Assembly (NCBI GenBank): GCA_039924845.1
Contig: JBDTAC010000085.1
Span: 1 to 37,725 of the forward strand
Reading direction: 5' to 3'
From: Bacteroidia bacterium
Lineage (GTDB): Bacteria; Bacteroidota; Bacteroidia; DATLTG01
DNA: 37,725 bases
The notes beneath the pieces were generated by a model. It searched no databases. It had not been told where the DNA came from and worked only from the letters and a program-made list of their open reading frames with translations. Shown here one piece after another: positions 19,574 to 31,301 of the stretch. Each line of letters opens with the position of its first letter. The first letter of the stretch is position 1. A program made the position numbers and the translations under genes.

Positions 19574-21570
19574 TGAACAAAAAATCTACCTTTCTTTTTT
19601 CAGCGTTTCTTTTTTTGACAATGCTTTCCGCGAATGCGCAAGACGCCAGTAAATACAACTCTTCGGATGTTTTCGATTTGTCCTTTTTAAATAACCCCGG
19701 AACCGTTTATCGTAGCGGAAGCGGAACGCCCGGACCTAATTATTGGCAAAATTGTGCGGATTATAAAATCGCGGCAACGCTTGATACCACTATTGCTTCC
19801 GTAAACGGAAAAGTAAGTATTACTTACACGAATAACAGTCCGGACGAACTTAATTTTTTGTGACTGCAATTGGATCAAAATCTTTTTAAGCAAGATTCTC
19901 GTGGCGCTCTCACAACGCCTGTTGGCGGATATCGTTTCGGAAATACTGTTTTTCAAGGAGGCGATTCTATTCAGTCGGTAAAAATTACATTGGATGGAAA
20001 AACGTACACCCCGAAATTTATTATTTCGGACACGCGCATGGAAATTTTATTGGACAAAGCGATGCGTCCGAAAGGCGATAAAGTAACGGTTGATATTGCG
20101 TACAGTTTTAAAATTCCGGAAGATGGTTCGGACCGTATGGGACGCACAACAACTAAAAATGGAACCATTTATGAAATCGCACAATGGTATCCGCGCATGG
20201 AAGTGTATGACGATGTAGAAGGCTGGAACACCTTGCCGTACTTGGGCGCCGGAGAATTTTATTTGGATTATGGAAATTATGATTTCACGATAACTGCTCC
20301 ATCCAATCAAATTGTAGTTGCTTCTGGCGAACTACAAAATTCTTCGGATGTGCTGACTCACGAAGAAATTTCGCGTTTAAATAAAGCGCGTAACAGTGAT
20401 TCTACTATTGCCATTATCGGTAAAAATGAAATTGGAAATCCTTCAACTCGTCCTACAAACAAAGGAAATTTGACATGGCATTTTAAAATGGAAAATTCCC
20501 GCGATGTAACTTGGGCATGTTCCAAAGCATTTATTTGGGATGCTGCACGCGTAAATTTACCAGACAAGAAAAAATGTTTGGCAATGTCTGTTTACCCGAT
20601 AGAAGTAGCGGGCGATTCAGCTTGGGGACGCTCCACAGAATATGTAAAAGGAACACTTGAATACAACTCGAAAGCGTATTTTGAATTTCCATACCCGGTG
20701 GCAGTAAATGTTGCTGGAAGAGTACGTGGAATGGAATATCCGGGAATTGTTTTTTGTGGATGGGAAGCTAAACGCGGCGTGCTTTGGTTTGTTACGACAC
20801 ACGAATTTGGACATACTTGGTTTCCGATGATTGTGGGTTCCAACGAACGTAAATATGCTTGGATGGACGAAGGTTTTAATACCTTCATTAATAATTTTTC
20901 TACGCGAAGTTTTCACAACGATGAATACAAAACGCAGCGCGATTCGGCTCCTTTAATTGTTAATTATATGATGAAGCCAGACGTGCAACCGATAATGACT
21001 TACGCAGATGCCGTTGTTGCCAGAGATCTTGGAAACAACGCGTATTTTAAACCAGCACTTGGCTTAAAAATGTTGCGCGAAGACATTGTTGGACCGCAAT
21101 TATTTGATGCTGCTTTCCGCACATATATTAGTCGTTGGGCGTTTAAACATCCTACGCCAAAAGATTTTTTTAATACGATGAACAACGCAACAGGCGAGGA
21201 TTTGAATTGGTTTTGGAAAGAATGGTTTTACAATACTTGGAAATTTGATGTGGCTGTAAAAGATGTAAAATATTTTGGCGATGATGCTTCGAAAGGTGTT
21301 TTGATTACGGTAGAAAATTTAGAAAAAATGGCTTTGCCAGTTACCATTCAGATAAAAGAGAAAAATGGAAAAGTGGGTATCGTAAAATTACCAGTGGAAG
21401 TTTGGCAACGTGGTGGAGTGTGGACATTTCATTACGATTCTACGGATTTAGTTGAATCCGTAATTATTGATCCTGACAGACAATTGCCAGATATTAATTT
21501 TGATAATAATGTGTGGAAATCAAGTGCAGATTTAAGTGATGATATGCCAAAACATAAAAAGAAAAAATGA
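19573..21570 (+). pseudogene. secreted M1-family zinc metallopeptidase with an in-frame TGA at codon 97
   Basis: Aminopeptidase-type M1 protein, 665 codons in one continuous frame except for TGA at 19861-19863. A Sec signal peptide ends at SANAQ (residues 1-23). The zinc site is complete: HEFGH (410-414) and Glu433, giving the exact HExxH-X18-E spacing. Downstream Trp, Asp and Glu motifs ([11 protein letters not shown]) are intact. Around the TGA the protein reads NNSPDELNFL[12 protein letters not shown]. Relatives, as I recall them, have tryptophan there (LWLQLDQN), so one TGG-to-TGA change explains it. No other damage is visible, so this is a recent nonsense mutation, a read error, or leaky read-through (context TGA-C). 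A separate start after the TGA is unlikely, because it would lack the signal peptide. Confidence 0.88.
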
Positions 21571-22172
21571 CCGAAAATTTATTTCCAAGCTTCGATAAAA
21601 TACTTCCACGTTCCGAAAAAGAAAAATTATTGAATCAGCGTGGAATGGTAATTTGGCTCACTGGACTTTCTGGCGCAGGAAAAACAACGATTGCCTTGGC
21701 GCTCGAAAAAAAATTACACGAAAAAAAAATTCTCACAGAGGTTTTAGACGGCGATAATGTGCGCACCGGAATCAATCGAAATTTAGGTTTTTCGGAAATA
21801 GATCGCATGGAAAATATTCGGAGAATTGCGGAAGTAGCGAAACTTTTTTTGGATTGCGGAATCGTTACCATTTGTGCCTTTGTAAGTCCGACTGAAACGA
21901 TGCGTCAAGAAGCGAAAAAAATCATCGGCGAAAATTATTTTTTCGAAGTGTTCGTAAATACACCTTTTGCTGTTTGCGAAAAACGTGATGTAAAAGGTTT
22001 GTATGCGAAAGTAAAAAAAGGCGAACTGAAAAATTTTACTGGAGCCGATTCTTCTTTTGAAATGCCTGTAAATGCAGACTTAATAATCCATACAGAAAAT
22101 ACAACAGTAGAAAATTGTGCAGAACAAATTTTAAAAAATATTGTTCGGAAAATTATAATTTTAAAAAAATAG
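21567..22172 (+). CDS. cysC: adenylylsulfate kinase
   Basis: Phosphorylates adenylylsulfate (APS) to PAPS, the activated sulfate donor, 201 residues. Walker A GLSGAGKT is at about 32-39. The APS-binding [26 protein letters not shown] segment (60-85), the FVSPTETMR lid with the conserved serine, and [25 protein letters not shown] (about 138-162) follow. The ATG overlaps the M1 peptidase stop (ATGA). The usual partners cysD/cysN are not adjacent; cysD is 4.4 kb further on. A palindrome-like GAAAATTATTTTTTCGAAG lies within the gene at 21929-21947. Confidence 0.95.
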
Positions 22173-25304: not shown

Positions 25305-26309
25305 ATGACCAAACGAACCGATTTTTATTATTCAACCGAGCCTGAACCACATCGCATACGGACGAGAGTCATTATGCAAAAACATCCAGAAATCCGCAAA
25401 TTAATCGGCAAAAATCCCTATACTATTTTTGCGATAATCGGAATTGTAAGTTTCCAAATTGTCCTTTCTTGGCTGGTAGCAGCGCATTCCTGGTGGATTG
25501 TTGTTGCCGCAGCCTATTTTTTGGGTGCTTACGCGGATCATGCTTTGTTTGTGATGATTCACGAATGCGCACATTATTTATTGTTCAAAAGACGCTCGTT
25601 AAACCGTTTGGCGGGCATGTTAGCAAACCTTCCGCAAATTATGCCAAGTTCCGTTTCATTTGAACGTTATCATATTAAGCATCATTCTTTTCAAGGCATT
25701 CACGAATTAGATGCTGATTTACCAAACCAGTGGGAAGCCAAATTAGTTGGCAATTCTTTTATCGGGAAAGCTCTTTGGTTTTTATTTTATCCTATTTTTC
25801 AAGTAACACGTGTTTCCCGACTCAAAGAAATAAAGCCTTTCGATGGTTGGATTGCATTGAATTGGTTTTCTCAACTCGTTTTTGCAAGTGCTATTTTCTT
25901 CTTTTTCGGACCTAAAGCCTTGGTTTTTTTGGTGATTAGCTTTTTCTTTTCGATTGGATTGCATCCGCTTGGCGGACGCTGGATTCAGGAACATTATTTA
26001 ACAAACGGACAACAAGAAACGTACAGTTATTACGGTGTTTTAAATAAAATCGCGTTCAATGTTGGTTATCACAATGAACACCACGATTTTCCATCCATTC
26101 CTTGGAATAAATTACCGCAAATTCGTAAAACTGCCACTCAATATTATGATACTTTAGCCTACCACACTTCTTGGTCAAAATTATTTTTTCGATTTTTATT
26201 CGATAGAGAAATTTCACTTTATTCGCGCGTTGTTCGTAAAGAAAGAGGAAAAGTGGCGCTTACGGATCAATCCATTCCAGACATCGAATTGGGCACAACA
26301 GTAAAATAA
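25305..26309 (+). CDS. membrane desaturase resembling sphingolipid delta4-desaturase (DES1/DEGS)
   Basis: Integral-membrane di-iron desaturase, 334 residues. Three histidine boxes: HECAH (86-90), HIKHH (123-127) and HNEHH (256-260), with His220 and His230 as further candidates. The N-terminus (DFYYSTEPEPHRIRTRVIMQ KHPEIRKL) lines up with the N-terminal domain of eukaryotic dihydroceramide delta4-desaturases. The C-terminal half (GLHPLGGRWIQEHY, ETYSYYGVLNKIAFNVGYHN, EHHDFPSIPW) is close to the DEGS sequence as I know it. At least four TM stretches surround the boxes. The likely substrate is a sphingoid base or ceramide-like lipid, which Bacteroidota make; an ordinary fatty-acid substrate is possible. 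No sphingolipid synthesis gene is in the window. Confidence 0.85.
   Translation: MTKRTDFYYSTEPEPHRIRTRVIMQKHPEIRKLIGKNPYTIFAIIGIVSFQIVLSWLVAAHSWWIVVAAAYFLGAYADHALFVMIHECAHYLLFKRRSLNRLAGMLANLPQIMPSSVSFERYHIKHHSFQGIHELDADLPNQWEAKLVGNSFIGKALWFLFYPIFQVTRVSRLKEIKPFDGWIALNWFSQLVFASAIFFFFGPKALVFLVISFFFSIGLHPLGGRWIQEHYLTNGQQETYSYYGVLNKIAFNVGYHNEHHDFPSIPWNKLPQIRKTATQYYDTLAYHTSWSKLFFRFLFDREISLYSRVVRKERGKVALTDQSIPDIELGTTVK
26175..26192 (-). repeat. AT palindrome-like site inside the desaturase gene
   Basis: GTCAAAATTATTTTTTCG, coding SKLFF near the C-terminus. Degenerate. Confidence 0.3.
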
Positions 26310-26553: not shown

Positions 26554-27459
26554 ATGCAATCGTATCATCTCAGTCATTTACAAGAATTAGAATCAGAAAG
26601 TATTTTTATTTTACGTGAATTAGCAGCGCAATTTGAAAAACCCGTGTTGCTTTTTTCGGGCGGAAAAGATTCGATTGTGGTGAGCCATTTAGCACGGAAA
26701 GCCTTTCATCCCGCTAAAATTCCCTTTCCATTAATGCACATTGATACAGGACATAATTTTCAGGAAACATTGGATTTTAGAGATCGATGGATGAAAAAGA
26801 TTGGCGCGAAATTAATTGTACGTTTTGTGCAAGATTCGATTGATAAAGGCAGAGCGATGGAAGAAAAAAGTTTGAATCCGAGTCGGAATGGCTTACAAAC
26901 TGTTACTTTGTTGGATGCCATTGAAGAATTCAAATTTGACGCTGCTATCGGCGGCGCCCGGCGCGACGAAGAAAAGGCGCGTGCCAAAGAACGTTTCTTT
27001 TCGCACCGCGATGAATTCGGACAGTGGGATCCGAAGAATCAACGTCCAGAATTATGGAATTTGTTCAATGGAAAAAAAAATACAGGAGAACATTTTCGTG
27101 TTTTCCCAATTAGTAATTGGACGGAAATGGACGTTTGGCAATACATTTTACATGAAAAAATAGAAATGCCCAATTTGTATTTTTCGCACAAAAGAGTATG
27201 CGTAAATCGCGATGGAATATTGCTGGCAAAATGCAATTTTATTACTTTGAAAGAAGGAGAAAAATACGAAGAATACCAAGTTCGTTTTCGTACAATTGGG
27301 GATATGAGCTGCACCGGAGCAGTAGAATCAAAAGCGGAATCTCTATCTGAAATTATTCAGGAAATAGCTTCCAGTAAAACAACAGAACGCGGCACCCGCG
27401 CAGATGACAAACGATCAGAAGCCGCCATGGAAGACCGAAAAAAAACAGGCTATTTTTAA
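26554..27459 (+). CDS. cysD: sulfate adenylyltransferase subunit 2
   Basis: Catalytic subunit of ATP sulfurylase, which makes adenylylsulfate from ATP and sulfate, 301 residues. The PP-loop SGGKDS is at 35-40, followed by HIDTGHNFQETLDFRDRW. The middle has GGARRDEEKARAKERFFS and FPISNWTEMDVWQYI. The C-terminal RGTRADDKRSEAAMEDRKK-GYF separates CysD from PAPS reductase. CysD normally works with the GTPase CysN, encoded next door in most genomes; here the following gene is a convergent glycosyltransferase, so cysN must be elsewhere. Confidence 0.95.
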   Translation: MQSYHLSHLQELESESIFILRELAAQFEKPVLLFSGGKDSIVVSHLARKAFHPAKIPFPLMHIDTGHNFQETLDFRDRWMKKIGAKLIVRFVQDSIDKGRAMEEKSLNPSRNGLQTVTLLDAIEEFKFDAAIGGARRDEEKARAKERFFSHRDEFGQWDPKNQRPELWNLFNGKKNTGEHFRVFPISNWTEMDVWQYILHEKIEMPNLYFSHKRVCVNRDGILLAKCNFITLKEGEKYEEYQVRFRTIGDMSCTGAVESKAESLSEIIQEIASSKTTERGTRADDKRSEAAMEDRKKTGYF

Positions 27460-27460
27460 C

Positions 27461-27486
27461 GCTTCAAAAAATTATTTTTTTGAAGC
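27461..27486. terminator. hairpin between convergent cysD and glycosyltransferase genes
   Basis: GCTTC and GAAGC arms around an AT palindrome core (26 bases, nearly perfect). It starts right after the cysD TAA and contains the TAA (27472-27474) of the opposing gene. Likely a shared bidirectional terminator. Confidence 0.65.
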
Positions 27487-28806
27487 AATTACTTCATCCA
27501 TTATTTCGCATAAATTTCTTGTGAGATTTTTACGCGAATATTTTTCGATGTGCGTGTTGGTAGTTTGTAAATTATTTTTTTGGTACAAATTGTAATATTC
27601 CAAAATTATTTTTTTGAGATTTACGTCATCTTCAAACTCAACTGTAATTCCCGATTGCGTTTCTGCAATAATTTCTGCCGCATCGCCATCCTTCGGTCCG
27701 ATGCACAAAATAGGGCGTTGTGCTGATAAATATTCAAACATCTTTCCGGTCAAAACGCCTTTCGCATTGTGCGTATTATTTAAAACAAGCAGTAAAATTT
27801 GTGATTGTTGTTGCACTTTTACAATTTCGGCATGCGACAAATAATCAATTTTATTCAGTTGTTTTTCGAGCTTAAAATACTCGATGTTTTTCATAATACT
27901 GATGTCTATTTTACCCGCCAATTTTATTTCTAAATCGTTTGCGAAAAAATTATTTTCCTGAACCAATTCCCCCAACACTTTCCAAAATGCTTCCGGATTG
28001 CGGCTTTTAACCATTGTTCCGATATGCGCGATGCTAAATTTTTTATCCAAAATTATTTTTTCAGACGATACATCATCGGTATCAAAACCATTTGTGATGA
28101 CGCGAAATTTATTTTTTATTTTCGATTTTATTCCTGCCTGAAAAATTATTTTTTCAAACTCTTCGCTCATTGTTTTTCCAACGCTGATAACGGAATCTGC
28201 ATTTTTTAGAACTTTCAATTCCAAGCGCTTGTGTTTTTTATCCGCAAAAGAACTCAACATTAAATCTTGGTAAAAATCAATGTTTGTCCAAGGATCACGA
28301 AAATCAGCTATCCAAGGAATGTTGAATTTTTTTTTCACTTGCATCGCGATGAGGTGCATGCTGTGTGGCGGTCCGCTAGAAATAATTAAGTCCACCGGAT
28401 TTTTTTTTAAATAATTTGTTAGATATTTTACGGAAGGTTTTACCCAAAATTTCCGTGCATCCGGAATAAAAAAATTTCCGCGCAGCCACACCGAAAATTT
28501 TTCGCTGTATTTTGATTTTTCGTTTTCGCTCAAAAAAGCGGCATTTATTTTTTGCGATTTTTTTTGTCCGATAAATAATTTATAAATGCTGTAAGGCTCC
28601 CAAATAGGCTGTTTCAGAATAAGTGTATTTTCGGGAATATCTTTTTCAAGCGACGAATCAATCACTGGTTTTTCGCCGTTGGAAGGAGTGTACACAATTG
28701 GTTCCCAACCAAATTCGCGCATGTATTTTACAAATTTAAGCCAGCGCTGCACTCCGGAGCCACCGCTGGGAGGCCAGTAATACGTGATGATTAAAGCTTT
28801 TTTCAT
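27472..28806 (-). CDS. glycosyltransferase, GT-B fold, GT4-like
   Basis: 444 residues from ATG at 28806. The N-terminal donor-independent domain starts MKKALIITYYWPPSGGSGVQ RWLKFVKYMREFGWEPIVYT, typical of GT4 enzymes of surface polysaccharides. Later parts show IISSGPPHSMHLIA, IPWIADFRDPW (about 149-159), FSIAHIGTMVKSRNP and, near the end, LSAQRPILCIGPKDGDAAEI, the donor-nucleotide region. The start overlaps the stop of the upstream YfhO gene (ATGA), so the two are coupled. The sugar is not predictable. Five palindrome-like sites lie in the gene, in frames that read KIIL, KIIF or KNN. A longer frame to 28854 overlaps the upstream gene and is rejected. Confidence 0.88.
   Translation of the reverse strand: MKKALIITYYWPPSGGSGVQRWLKFVKYMREFGWEPIVYTPSNGEKPVIDSSLEKDIPENTLILKQPIWEPYSIYKLFIGQKKSQKINAAFLSENEKSKYSEKFSVWLRGNFFIPDARKFWVKPSVKYLTNYLKKNPVDLIISSGPPHSMHLIAMQVKKKFNIPWIADFRDPWTNIDFYQDLMLSSFADKKHKRLELKVLKNADSVISVGKTMSEEFEKIIFQAGIKSKIKNKFRVITNGFDTDDVSSEKIILDKKFSIAHIGTMVKSRNPEAFWKVLGELVQENNFFANDLEIKLAGKIDISIMKNIEYFKLEKQLNKIDYLSHAEIVKVQQQSQILLLVLNNTHNAKGVLTGKMFEYLSAQRPILCIGPKDGDAAEIIAETQSGITVEFEDDVNLKKIILEYYNLYQKNNLQTTNTHIEKYSRKNLTRNLCEIMDEVIASKK
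27567..27619 (-). repeat. two AT palindrome-like sites inside the glycosyltransferase gene
   Basis: Sites at 27567-27586 and 27601-27619, both A4-TTA-T7 type, coding QKNNL and LKKII near the C-terminus. Confidence 0.4.
27941..28157 (-). repeat. three AT palindrome-like sites inside the glycosyltransferase gene
   Basis: Sites at 27941-27958, 28047-28064 and 28138-28157. The last (CTGAAAAATTATTTTTTCAA) is as good as intergenic copies and is read as EKIIFQ. Confidence 0.4.
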
Positions 28807-31301
28807 TCGGCATTCGGCTTCATTTTGAAAAGATATCCTACGTAACCCAAACATAAAAGAATAAGTAGCGCGGAACTTGCTAAGGAAATTTTTTCGCCAG
28901 CCGCAAAAATCACTGGTTCAAATTTAAACTCTACCTTGTGTGATCCTGCTGGAATACGCATCGCACGCAATACATAATTTACGCGGATATAAGGCGTCAG
29001 TTTTCCGTCGATATAAGCGTTCCAACCATCTTTATAATAGATTTCAGAAAAAACTGCGAGCGCTTCGTGTTGCGAATTGGCTTGATAAACTAAGTCGTTC
29101 GGCTCGTACGAAAGCATTTTTATTGTTGCGGAAGAATCTGCCACTGGCGTAAATCCTGAAAAATAATTTTGGAAACGTTGATCGACAATGGCTGTTTTTG
29201 CCGGATTAAAATTGCTGAGATCCATTATTTCGGAATCAGCATCCAATACTATTTTATAATTGGAAACAAACCAAGCATTTCCCAATGCGTCAGGATTCTC
29301 ACGCGCGATAGGCTGATTGTCTTTCCCGTTCATAATAAAATATTTCGCGTTGAGCATATCCAAAACAGATATATTATTTCTGTCTATTTGATACGTCATT
29401 AACTCATCGTAACGTTTCAATTTTGCGCCGTGATAACCGCCAATAGATTTATGGAAATAAGAAGTTTTTCCGTCTTGATCGGGACGAACAGTGGTATTAA
29501 AAACGCGGTAATCGAGCGATTTATCTTGCAATATTTGTAAATCTGCTGCAGATGGTTGAAACGTTTGTGATTCTTGATGAGCCGTTTCAAAACTATTGTC
29601 GTTGAGATAACGTTTGTCCACGTTCCACATATCTGCTAAAATAAAAACGATAAGTGTTCCGAACATCCATTTTTTTGTAATTTTTGATTTAAAATAAAGC
29701 CACAATAAGCCCGCAGTGAGCGCAATAAAAATAAAACTACGAATAGAATCTGATTTGAAAATTTCTTTTCGGGCAACCACTAATTGTCCAAAAATATCTG
29801 TTAAATAAGTGGTGATTTGAGTGTCGTCTACTTTCGGATTTGCTTGTTTTATTTGATTGAATGTATTTCCAAATTCATTGCTTCCTTGAAAAGTAGAAAA
29901 CGACGAAGGCATGAGGTAGCAAAGCAAAGCAACGCCTCCTGAAAAAATAAATGCGAGAAAAAAAAGTTTCTGTTTCGAAACAGGATTGCTCACAAAAGGA
30001 ACTTTCATGGTTTCGGTTAAGAAATTTTTATTTTTCACAATTTCATCTACTGCCAATACAGCAAGGAGCGGCAGCGTAAATTCAGCGAGAATTAAAATCA
30101 TGGAAACAGCTCTGAATTTATTGTAGCCTGGAAAATGGTTGAAGAAAAAATCCGTCAGCGGATGAAAATTATTTCCCCAGGAAAGCATGATGGATAAAAG
30201 GGTTGCGATGAATAAAAACCATTTGAAAGAACCTTTTATAACGAATAATCCGAGTAAGGAAAGAAAAAATACAATGGCACCTGCATATACTGGTCCTGCC
30301 GTAAATGGCTGATCACCCCAATATTGATCCATGTTTGCCACTTGTTGTTTTTGTTCCGGGCTTACGTTTTCCATCGCGCTTTTGTCGTTACCAATGGGCG
30401 CAGAAACGCCTCCTTTAAAATTCGGAATCATCAACGTCATCGTTTCGGCTTTTCCGTAACACCATTGCAATGCGTACTCTTCGCTTAATCCGCTGCTGGA
30501 AGTTTGTTTGTCGAGCGTTAATTCAGATTTTCCGCGCGTGGTATATTTTCCATAATCATAGGTTGCCCACAAATTGGTAATGTTTGTACCAACCGCTAAG
30601 AGTGCAGCAAAACCAATTACTGCACATGCTTTAAAAAAAGGTACGTAGGCTTTATTTTTAATGGCTTGATAAAATTCGATGAGCACATAAACCGCTAACA
30701 TCATCATCAAATAATAGGTTATTTGCAAGTGATTACAATACAATTCGAGCGCTAAAAACAGAGCCGTTAAAATTCCGCCTTTCAAAAAATCTTTTTTGAA
30801 AACCAAAATAAATCCCGCTAAAACAGGCGCCATATAACCAATAGCATGCGCTTGTGAATTATGCCCGACATCAATAATGATAAAAAAGAAAGAAGAAAAT
30901 GCAAATGCGATGGAGCCCGCGACTGCCAGCCAAATATCGATTTCGAGTGTTATCAATAAAATATAAAAGCCAATTAAATAAAGTAATAAAAGACTTGCCG
31001 GATAAGGAACTCCCAGGCTAAAAATACGATCCACGTACGCAACTAAATTGGCGGAATACAATACGGAAATTTGATACGCCGGCATTCCTCCGAACATCGA
31101 ATTCGTCCACAAAGGTTCTTTGTGAAATTGAGCGCGGTAATCGACAATTTCTTTTGACATCCCTTTAAAATTAACGATGTCGCTTTGTTTCATTTGCATT
31201 CCGCTCATCAGCGGAGAAAAATAAGCCATCGTAATCACAACAAAAATTGCGAGGACAGCGATGTGCGGAAGAATTTTTTTGAAATTGAATTTTTGGCTCA
31301 T
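28803..31301 (-). CDS. YfhO-family multi-spanning membrane protein
   Basis: 832 residues with about 12-13 TM segments, starting with one at about 12-30, then a periplasmic loop containing DIVNFKGMSKEIVDYRAQFHKEPLWTNSMFGGMPAY. A soluble C-terminal domain follows (about 560-790, YRVFNTTVRPDQDGKTSYFHKSIGGYHGAKLKRYDELM), then a final TM. This architecture, with the GGYHGAKL and YKDGWNAYIDGK segments, is that of YfhO proteins, which in Firmicutes are linked to glycosylation of surface polymers; related large membrane glycosyltransferases share the fold. The following coupled glycosyltransferase supports a role in polysaccharide or lipid glycosylation. It follows carB by 27 bases, nearly all of which is a palindrome copy. 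Confidence 0.88.
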   Translation of the reverse strand: MSQKFNFKKILPHIAVLAIFVVITMAYFSPLMSGMQMKQSDIVNFKGMSKEIVDYRAQFHKEPLWTNSMFGGMPAYQISVLYSANLVAYVDRIFSLGVPYPASLLLLYLIGFYILLITLEIDIWLAVAGSIAFAFSSFFFIIIDVGHNSQAHAIGYMAPVLAGFILVFKKDFLKGGILTALFLALELYCNHLQITYYLMMMLAVYVLIEFYQAIKNKAYVPFFKACAVIGFAALLAVGTNITNLWATYDYGKYTTRGKSELTLDKQTSSSGLSEEYALQWCYGKAETMTLMIPNFKGGVSAPIGNDKSAMENVSPEQKQQVANMDQYWGDQPFTAGPVYAGAIVFFLSLLGLFVIKGSFKWFLFIATLLSIMLSWGNNFHPLTDFFFNHFPGYNKFRAVSMILILAEFTLPLLAVLAVDEIVKNKNFLTETMKVPFVSNPVSKQKLFFLAFIFSGGVALLCYLMPSSFSTFQGSNEFGNTFNQIKQANPKVDDTQITTYLTDIFGQLVVARKEIFKSDSIRSFIFIALTAGLLWLYFKSKITKKWMFGTLIVFILADMWNVDKRYLNDNSFETAHQESQTFQPSAADLQILQDKSLDYRVFNTTVRPDQDGKTSYFHKSIGGYHGAKLKRYDELMTYQIDRNNISVLDMLNAKYFIMNGKDNQPIARENPDALGNAWFVSNYKIVLDADSEIMDLSNFNPAKTAIVDQRFQNYFSGFTPVADSSATIKMLSYEPNDLVYQANSQHEALAVFSEIYYKDGWNAYIDGKLTPYIRVNYVLRAMRIPAGSHKVEFKFEPVIFAAGEKISLASSALLILLCLGYVGYLFKMKPNAE

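Follow-up and report, generated by a model that had tools for sequence, protein, structure and literature searches.

A Bacteroidia desaturase of the sphingolipid delta4-desaturase (DES) family and its predicted long-chain-base substrates

The desaturase gene and its surroundings

The window, i.e., the whole 37,725-nt stretch of DNA that was analysed, comes from a Bacteroidia genome of 2.66 Mb (99.1% complete, 0.09% contamination) and carries a gene for a membrane desaturase of 334 amino acids. The ORF has an ATG start codon and no internal stop codons, and is therefore intact; its G+C content is 38.2%, versus 37.4% for the window. The features of the gene and its neighbours are collected in Table 1.

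Table 1. Coordinates of the desaturase, its domains and histidine boxes, and nearby genes in the window
Feature	Position	Strand	Basis or remark
Lipid_DES-family membrane diiron desaturase	25305..26309	+	ORF, PF08557, PF00487, AlphaFold2 model
Lipid_DES N-terminal domain PF08557	25311..25421	+	All 37 profile positions covered
His79 and first histidine box, H86-E-C-A-H90	25539..25574	+	Invariant in 54/54 homologues
Second histidine box, H123-I-K-H126-H127	25671..25685	+	Histidines invariant in 54/54 homologues
Third histidine box, H256-N-E-H259-H260	26070..26084	+	Invariant in 54/54 homologues
cysC	21567..22172		
cysD	26554..27459		
Glycosyltransferase ORF	27472..28854	-	
YfhO-like ORF, 832 aa	28803..31301	-	Overlaps the glycosyltransferase ORF by 52 bases
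Carbamoyl-phosphate synthase large subunit, 938 aa	31329..34145	-	Model positions 1-925 of 1058; C-terminal part missing

The genes era and der lie with the desaturase gene in an interval flanked by cysC and cysD; cysN was not identified among the window ORFs checked. The original prediction had placed both cys genes correctly, and had taken them as a possible hint of sulfur-containing lipids. That hint did not hold up: of 119 loci with homologues of the desaturase (80 close and 39 dispersed, some of which end at contig ends), none has either gene nearby, so the site between der and cysD is apparently an accident of location, and a sulfonolipid cluster including cysC and cysD was rejected. The 80 closest loci have no neighbour in common in more than 18 cases, leaving aside reading-frame shadows of the desaturase itself, and the commonest neighbour lacks a Pfam match. 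Scans of the desaturase flanks for promoters and terminators returned no more than expected by chance. Further along the window, the ORF next to the truncated carbamoyl-phosphate synthase ORF is unrelated to it.

The same 334-residue protein matches two Pfam profiles. The Lipid_DES profile PF08557, for which the curated cut-off is 23 bits, matches residues 3–39 with 55–58.7 bits (E 5e-15 to 1.4e-15), and this is the single PF08557 match in the source genome. The broader FA_desaturase profile, PF00487, matches residues 63–287 with 97 bits. PF08557 was found in none of 14 control genomes despite the presence of PF00487 desaturases in five of them, meaning that the profile picks out this particular branch of the desaturases. 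No NCBIfam equivalog model had its cut-off reached. Judged from its domains, the protein belongs securely to the family. The expectation that the likeness to DES1 would extend over the whole protein and include Lipid_DES was borne out, since the profile is matched above its cut-off and every DES1-like motif was located (DFYYSTEPEPHRIR, ANLPQIMPSSVSFERYHIKHH, GLHPLGG, ETYSYYG, FNVGYHNEHHDFP and ISLYSR).

An AlphaFold2 model based on 54 homologues has a mean pLDDT of 89.7. The closest solved folds are a subunit of a plastid motor complex (8xks_K) and AlkB (8sbb), with stearoyl-CoA desaturase (4zyo) as a weak match; a sequence search returned no similar solved structures. As modelled, with high confidence, the protein has the fold of integral diiron enzymes.

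Relationship to eukaryotic enzymes and distribution

A published survey describes the delta4-sphingolipid desaturases as a small and specialised family in which the only known substrates are sphingolipids (PMC5037126). The window protein shares with DES1/DEGS1 the PF08557 N-terminal domain, the three histidine boxes, and motifs that are colinear over the full length. It differs in having HPLGGRWIQEHY where DEGS1 has HPISGHFIAEHY, and in its setting: the host is a bacterium without an ER, and the available substrates include capnine-type sulfonolipids. For comparison at the residue level, we used a provisional human DEGS1 sequence; it and the window protein are 39.6% identical across 318 aligned positions. 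The provisional sequence agrees with eight of eight residues published in PMC10940770. Twelve histidines of the bacterial protein are invariant across 54 homologues, among them H127, which aligns with DEGS1 H132; the H132R substitution abolishes DEGS1 activity (PMC10940770). Six DEGS1 missense variants with impaired activity have been described, at N113, H132, L175, N189, N255 and A280 (PMC10940770), and five of these six sites are identical in the window protein (N108, H127, N186, N252 and A277). At the sixth, L175, the window protein has S171, and this site varies between the bacterial proteins.

In a 54-sequence tree, the Bacteroidia proteins form one clade (support 97/90), with the window protein placed among Chitinophagaceae sequences. 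In a separate tree, the window clade and the provisional DEGS1, the only eukaryotic sequence included, group together against two ordinary desaturases from the source genome, which sit on extremely long outgroup branches. The prediction that the protein would fall outside the ordinary desaturases agrees with this placement. Front-end, methyl-end and first acyl-lipid or acyl-CoA desaturases (PF00487) have the superfamily and general fold in common with the window protein; the genome's own two other PF00487 proteins have no PF08557 match and lie far outside the DES tree.

Within the tree with the ordinary desaturases as outgroup, the provisional DEGS1 is sister not to the window clade but to a second bacterial clade (L131–L133, 100/99). 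The second clade as a whole (L131–L134) belongs to one bacterial family, f25, probably Balneolaceae; it consists of proteins of the same DES family with 39–41% identity to the window protein, and carries a eukaryote-like HPLSGHFISEHY motif, whereas the window protein is in the separate Bacteroidia clade. The four loci come from genomes G191, G089, G263 and G187, and have the motif HPL(S/A)GHFISEHY; other f25 genomes carry different DES proteins (L156, L157, L166 and L167). The sisterhood of the provisional DEGS1 and the f25 proteins suggests that a gene of this family has at some point passed between bacteria and eukaryotes, in one direction or the other.

The heading of the original prediction had implied a rarity. 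On the contrary, many Chitinophagales and Sphingobacteriales carry the gene. A scan of GTDB genomes returned at least 571 related stretches, the best 80 of which are 67–78% identical to the window protein and are mostly labelled Chitinophagaceae or Sphingobacteriaceae (Chitinophaga, Puia, Ferruginibacter, Sediminibacterium and Mucilaginibacter). In an even sample of the phylum, PF08557 occurs in 40 of 396 genomes and in 26 of 172 genera. Among 40 relatives of the source organism, nearly all from different families, the desaturase is present only in the source genome and in one other (G413), so its distribution is patchy; G413 also encodes a cysteate fatty acyltransferase (CFAT; 683 bits) and a gene resembling serine palmitoyltransferase (SPT; 505 bits). 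Mobile and viral collections gave little: a scan of viral contigs returned 36 pattern matches and no relatives of the desaturase, BFVD held generic desaturases only, and a plasmid collection had nothing closer than a distant cyanobacterial desaturase with 27.5% identity.

Long-chain-base synthases and their co-occurrence with the desaturase

Four members of the alpha-oxoamine synthase family are encoded in the source genome, and both SPT and CFAT are among them, giving the host synthases for two kinds of long-chain base. SPT scores 679 bits with NF047600 (cut-off 640), and its best solved relatives are the SPTs 8guh and 3a2b. CFAT, the entry to capnine sulfonolipids (PMC11211663, PMC10191378), has as its second-best solved relative 28eh, “Cysteate-C-fatty acyltransferase”, with 578 bits. 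The third gene is a glycine C-acetyltransferase, and the fourth was judged to be BioF from its neighbours.

Directly after SPT lies a gene for a 374-amino-acid acyltransferase candidate (L085:2582-3706, on contig C18 of the source genome) that has no Pfam or NCBIfam matches. Across classes outside Bacteroidia, this acyltransferase adjoins the SPT-like gene in 14 of 15 SPT loci, one of which is from a genome that lacks DES; the exception is one of two SPT-like genes in G070. The genomes in which its closer relatives occur tend to be those with SPT, and a protein search also found the acyltransferase in two genomes of family f19. We suggest that it is a candidate bacterial ceramide synthase. A search of the genome for spt and ceramide synthase genes, as proposed originally, thus recovered an SPT above its cut-off and a candidate for the ceramide synthase adjoining it.

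All 40 desaturase-carrying genomes in the phylum sample have SPT or an SPT-like gene, CFAT, or both. Within Bacteroidia, SPT is present in nine of 15 carriers versus nine of 84 non-carriers (Fisher 8e-5; p 0.035 when counted by genus), although both p values treat genomes or genera as independent when the sampled genomes share ancestry. CFAT is nearly universal in the class (92 of 99 genomes), so its presence in 15/15 carriers, versus 77/84 non-carriers, is no enrichment (p 0.59). Given that base rate, co-occurrence with CFAT was rejected as proof of a sulfonolipid substrate. In 39 desaturase loci from across the phylum, SPT, CFAT and the acyltransferase are never adjacent to the desaturase; an operon with SPT, CFAT or a ceramide synthase was therefore rejected, and the link to either pathway is one of co-occurrence only.

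Carriers with a single route exist in both directions. Six of the 15 Bacteroidia carriers have CFAT without SPT (G146, G150, G250, G372, G388 and G392), while 17 carriers outside Bacteroidia, from families f18, f36 and f44, have an SPT-like gene without CFAT; the acyltransferase adjoins the SPT-like gene in all 12 of these 17 for which the SPT neighbourhood was fetched. In family f25, carriers combine CFAT with an SPT-like gene. One genus, g29, includes a genome with DES and CFAT but no SPT (G150) and another with SPT and CFAT but no DES (G384). Among the 18 Bacteroidia with SPT, the desaturase is found in nine of 11 with CFAT and in none of seven without it (p 0.002); the seven may be anaerobes, which makes this difference weak evidence for a sulfonolipid preference. 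Across genomes, the desaturase strictly follows neither the sphingolipid nor the sulfonolipid pathway. The claim that it leads to ceramides or capnine-type lipids is weakly favoured by the presence of both synthases in the source genome and of one-route carriers in each direction.

Proposed function and its significance

The desaturase is a bacterial representative of an established family and is common within its clade; most likely it carries out delta4-type desaturation of N-acyl long-chain bases. Specifically, we propose, with a probability of about 0.68, that it acts on N-acylated 3-hydroxy long-chain bases, introducing a 4,5-double bond and tolerating different head groups at C1. The protein is an O2-dependent, integral-membrane diiron enzyme of the DES (Lipid_DES) family, and most likely takes two hydrogens from beside the 3-hydroxyl group once the base has been N-acylated. 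In this host, the substrate would be dihydroceramide, supplied by SPT and the adjacent acyltransferase, N-acyl-capnine, supplied by way of CFAT, or both; the enzyme would recognise the 2-amido-3-hydroxy chain that these lipids share, irrespective of what is attached at C1. A head-group-tolerant enzyme is the simplest reading because one-route carriers exist in both directions. Its substrate, product, double-bond position and geometry, electron donor and physiological role are what we infer for it.

Two alternatives are narrower versions of this proposal, so the likelihoods of the three overlap. (Dihydro)ceramides may be the sole substrates, as for the eukaryotic enzymes, with CFAT-only carriers getting ceramides from another source or having an unrecognised SPT. 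The enrichment of SPT among Bacteroidia carriers fits this, as does the pairing of SPT-like genes with a lack of CFAT in f18, f36 and f44, and sphingolipids are the substrates of known DES enzymes (PMC5037126). However, in the six CFAT-only carriers, whose genomes are 99–100% complete, no alpha-oxoamine synthase scores more than 360 bits with the SPT model and the SPT-linked acyltransferase has no close orthologue, and restriction to ceramides seems to us somewhat unlikely. Less likely still is that, in Bacteroidia, DES is restricted to sulfonolipids (N-acyl-capnine), with relatives in other classes acting on ceramides. The Bacteroidia proteins are a single clade, every one of their 15 carriers has CFAT (six of them without SPT), and the 9/11 versus 0/7 split among SPT-containing genomes (p 0.002) points the same way. 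Against this, 93% of the Bacteroidia in the sample have CFAT, such that co-occurrence is expected; the desaturase is enriched with SPT and not with CFAT; and an O2-dependent enzyme would be useless to the seven SPT-only genomes if they are anaerobes.

The remaining alternatives concern the type of enzyme rather than its substrate. One eukaryotic family, that of DEGS2, has both desaturase and hydroxylase activities, which counts in favour of an enzyme that hydroxylates the long-chain base at C4 or nearby, like the bifunctional DES2 branch, with no desaturation. The Bacteroidota sulfonolipid RIF-1, with a 5-hydroxyl on its base (PMC3463246), is also consistent with such an activity. None of the sequence features examined separates hydroxylases from desaturases, and we consider hydroxylation alone improbable. 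The chance is slimmer again that this is an ordinary fatty acid desaturase resembling DES by shared ancestry: the PF00487 match and the lack of an NCBIfam equivalog would allow it, but PF08557 is above its cut-off here and missing from 14/14 control genomes, the source genome's own pair of ordinary desaturases are far outside the DES tree, and five of six DEGS1 loss-of-function sites are conserved.

Returning to the proposed head-group-tolerant desaturase, we tentatively suggest, at somewhat worse than even odds, that in Bacteroidota without SPT a DES-family enzyme desaturates N-acyl-capnine, and would thus be a delta4-desaturase of sulfonolipids, a counterpart of the animal enzyme that tolerates other head groups, and a source of unsaturated capnoids. 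The long-chain bases of bacterial sphingolipids and sulfonolipids are, as generally described, saturated. The literature we searched, largely outside the subscription journals, included no characterised bacterial DES member or product, no delta4-unsaturated bases in carrier genera, and no desaturase for bacterial sphingolipids or sulfonolipids. Flavocristamide A and halocapnine are both named there, in passages that do not give the position of the double bond. Halocapnine, and possibly flavocristamide A, has a double bond beside the hydroxylated carbon, as would be expected of a product of such an enzyme.

In animals and plants, DES-family enzymes introduce the double bond that is typical of sphingolipids. 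Given how widespread the family is among free-living Bacteroidota, sphingosine-like lipids or unsaturated capnoids are predicted in these bacteria, such as relatives of Chitinophaga and Mucilaginibacter. Environmental lipidomic studies that take delta4-sphingosine as a sign of eukaryotes could be misled by such lipids, which would also bear on the question of which bacterial lipids resemble host ceramides.
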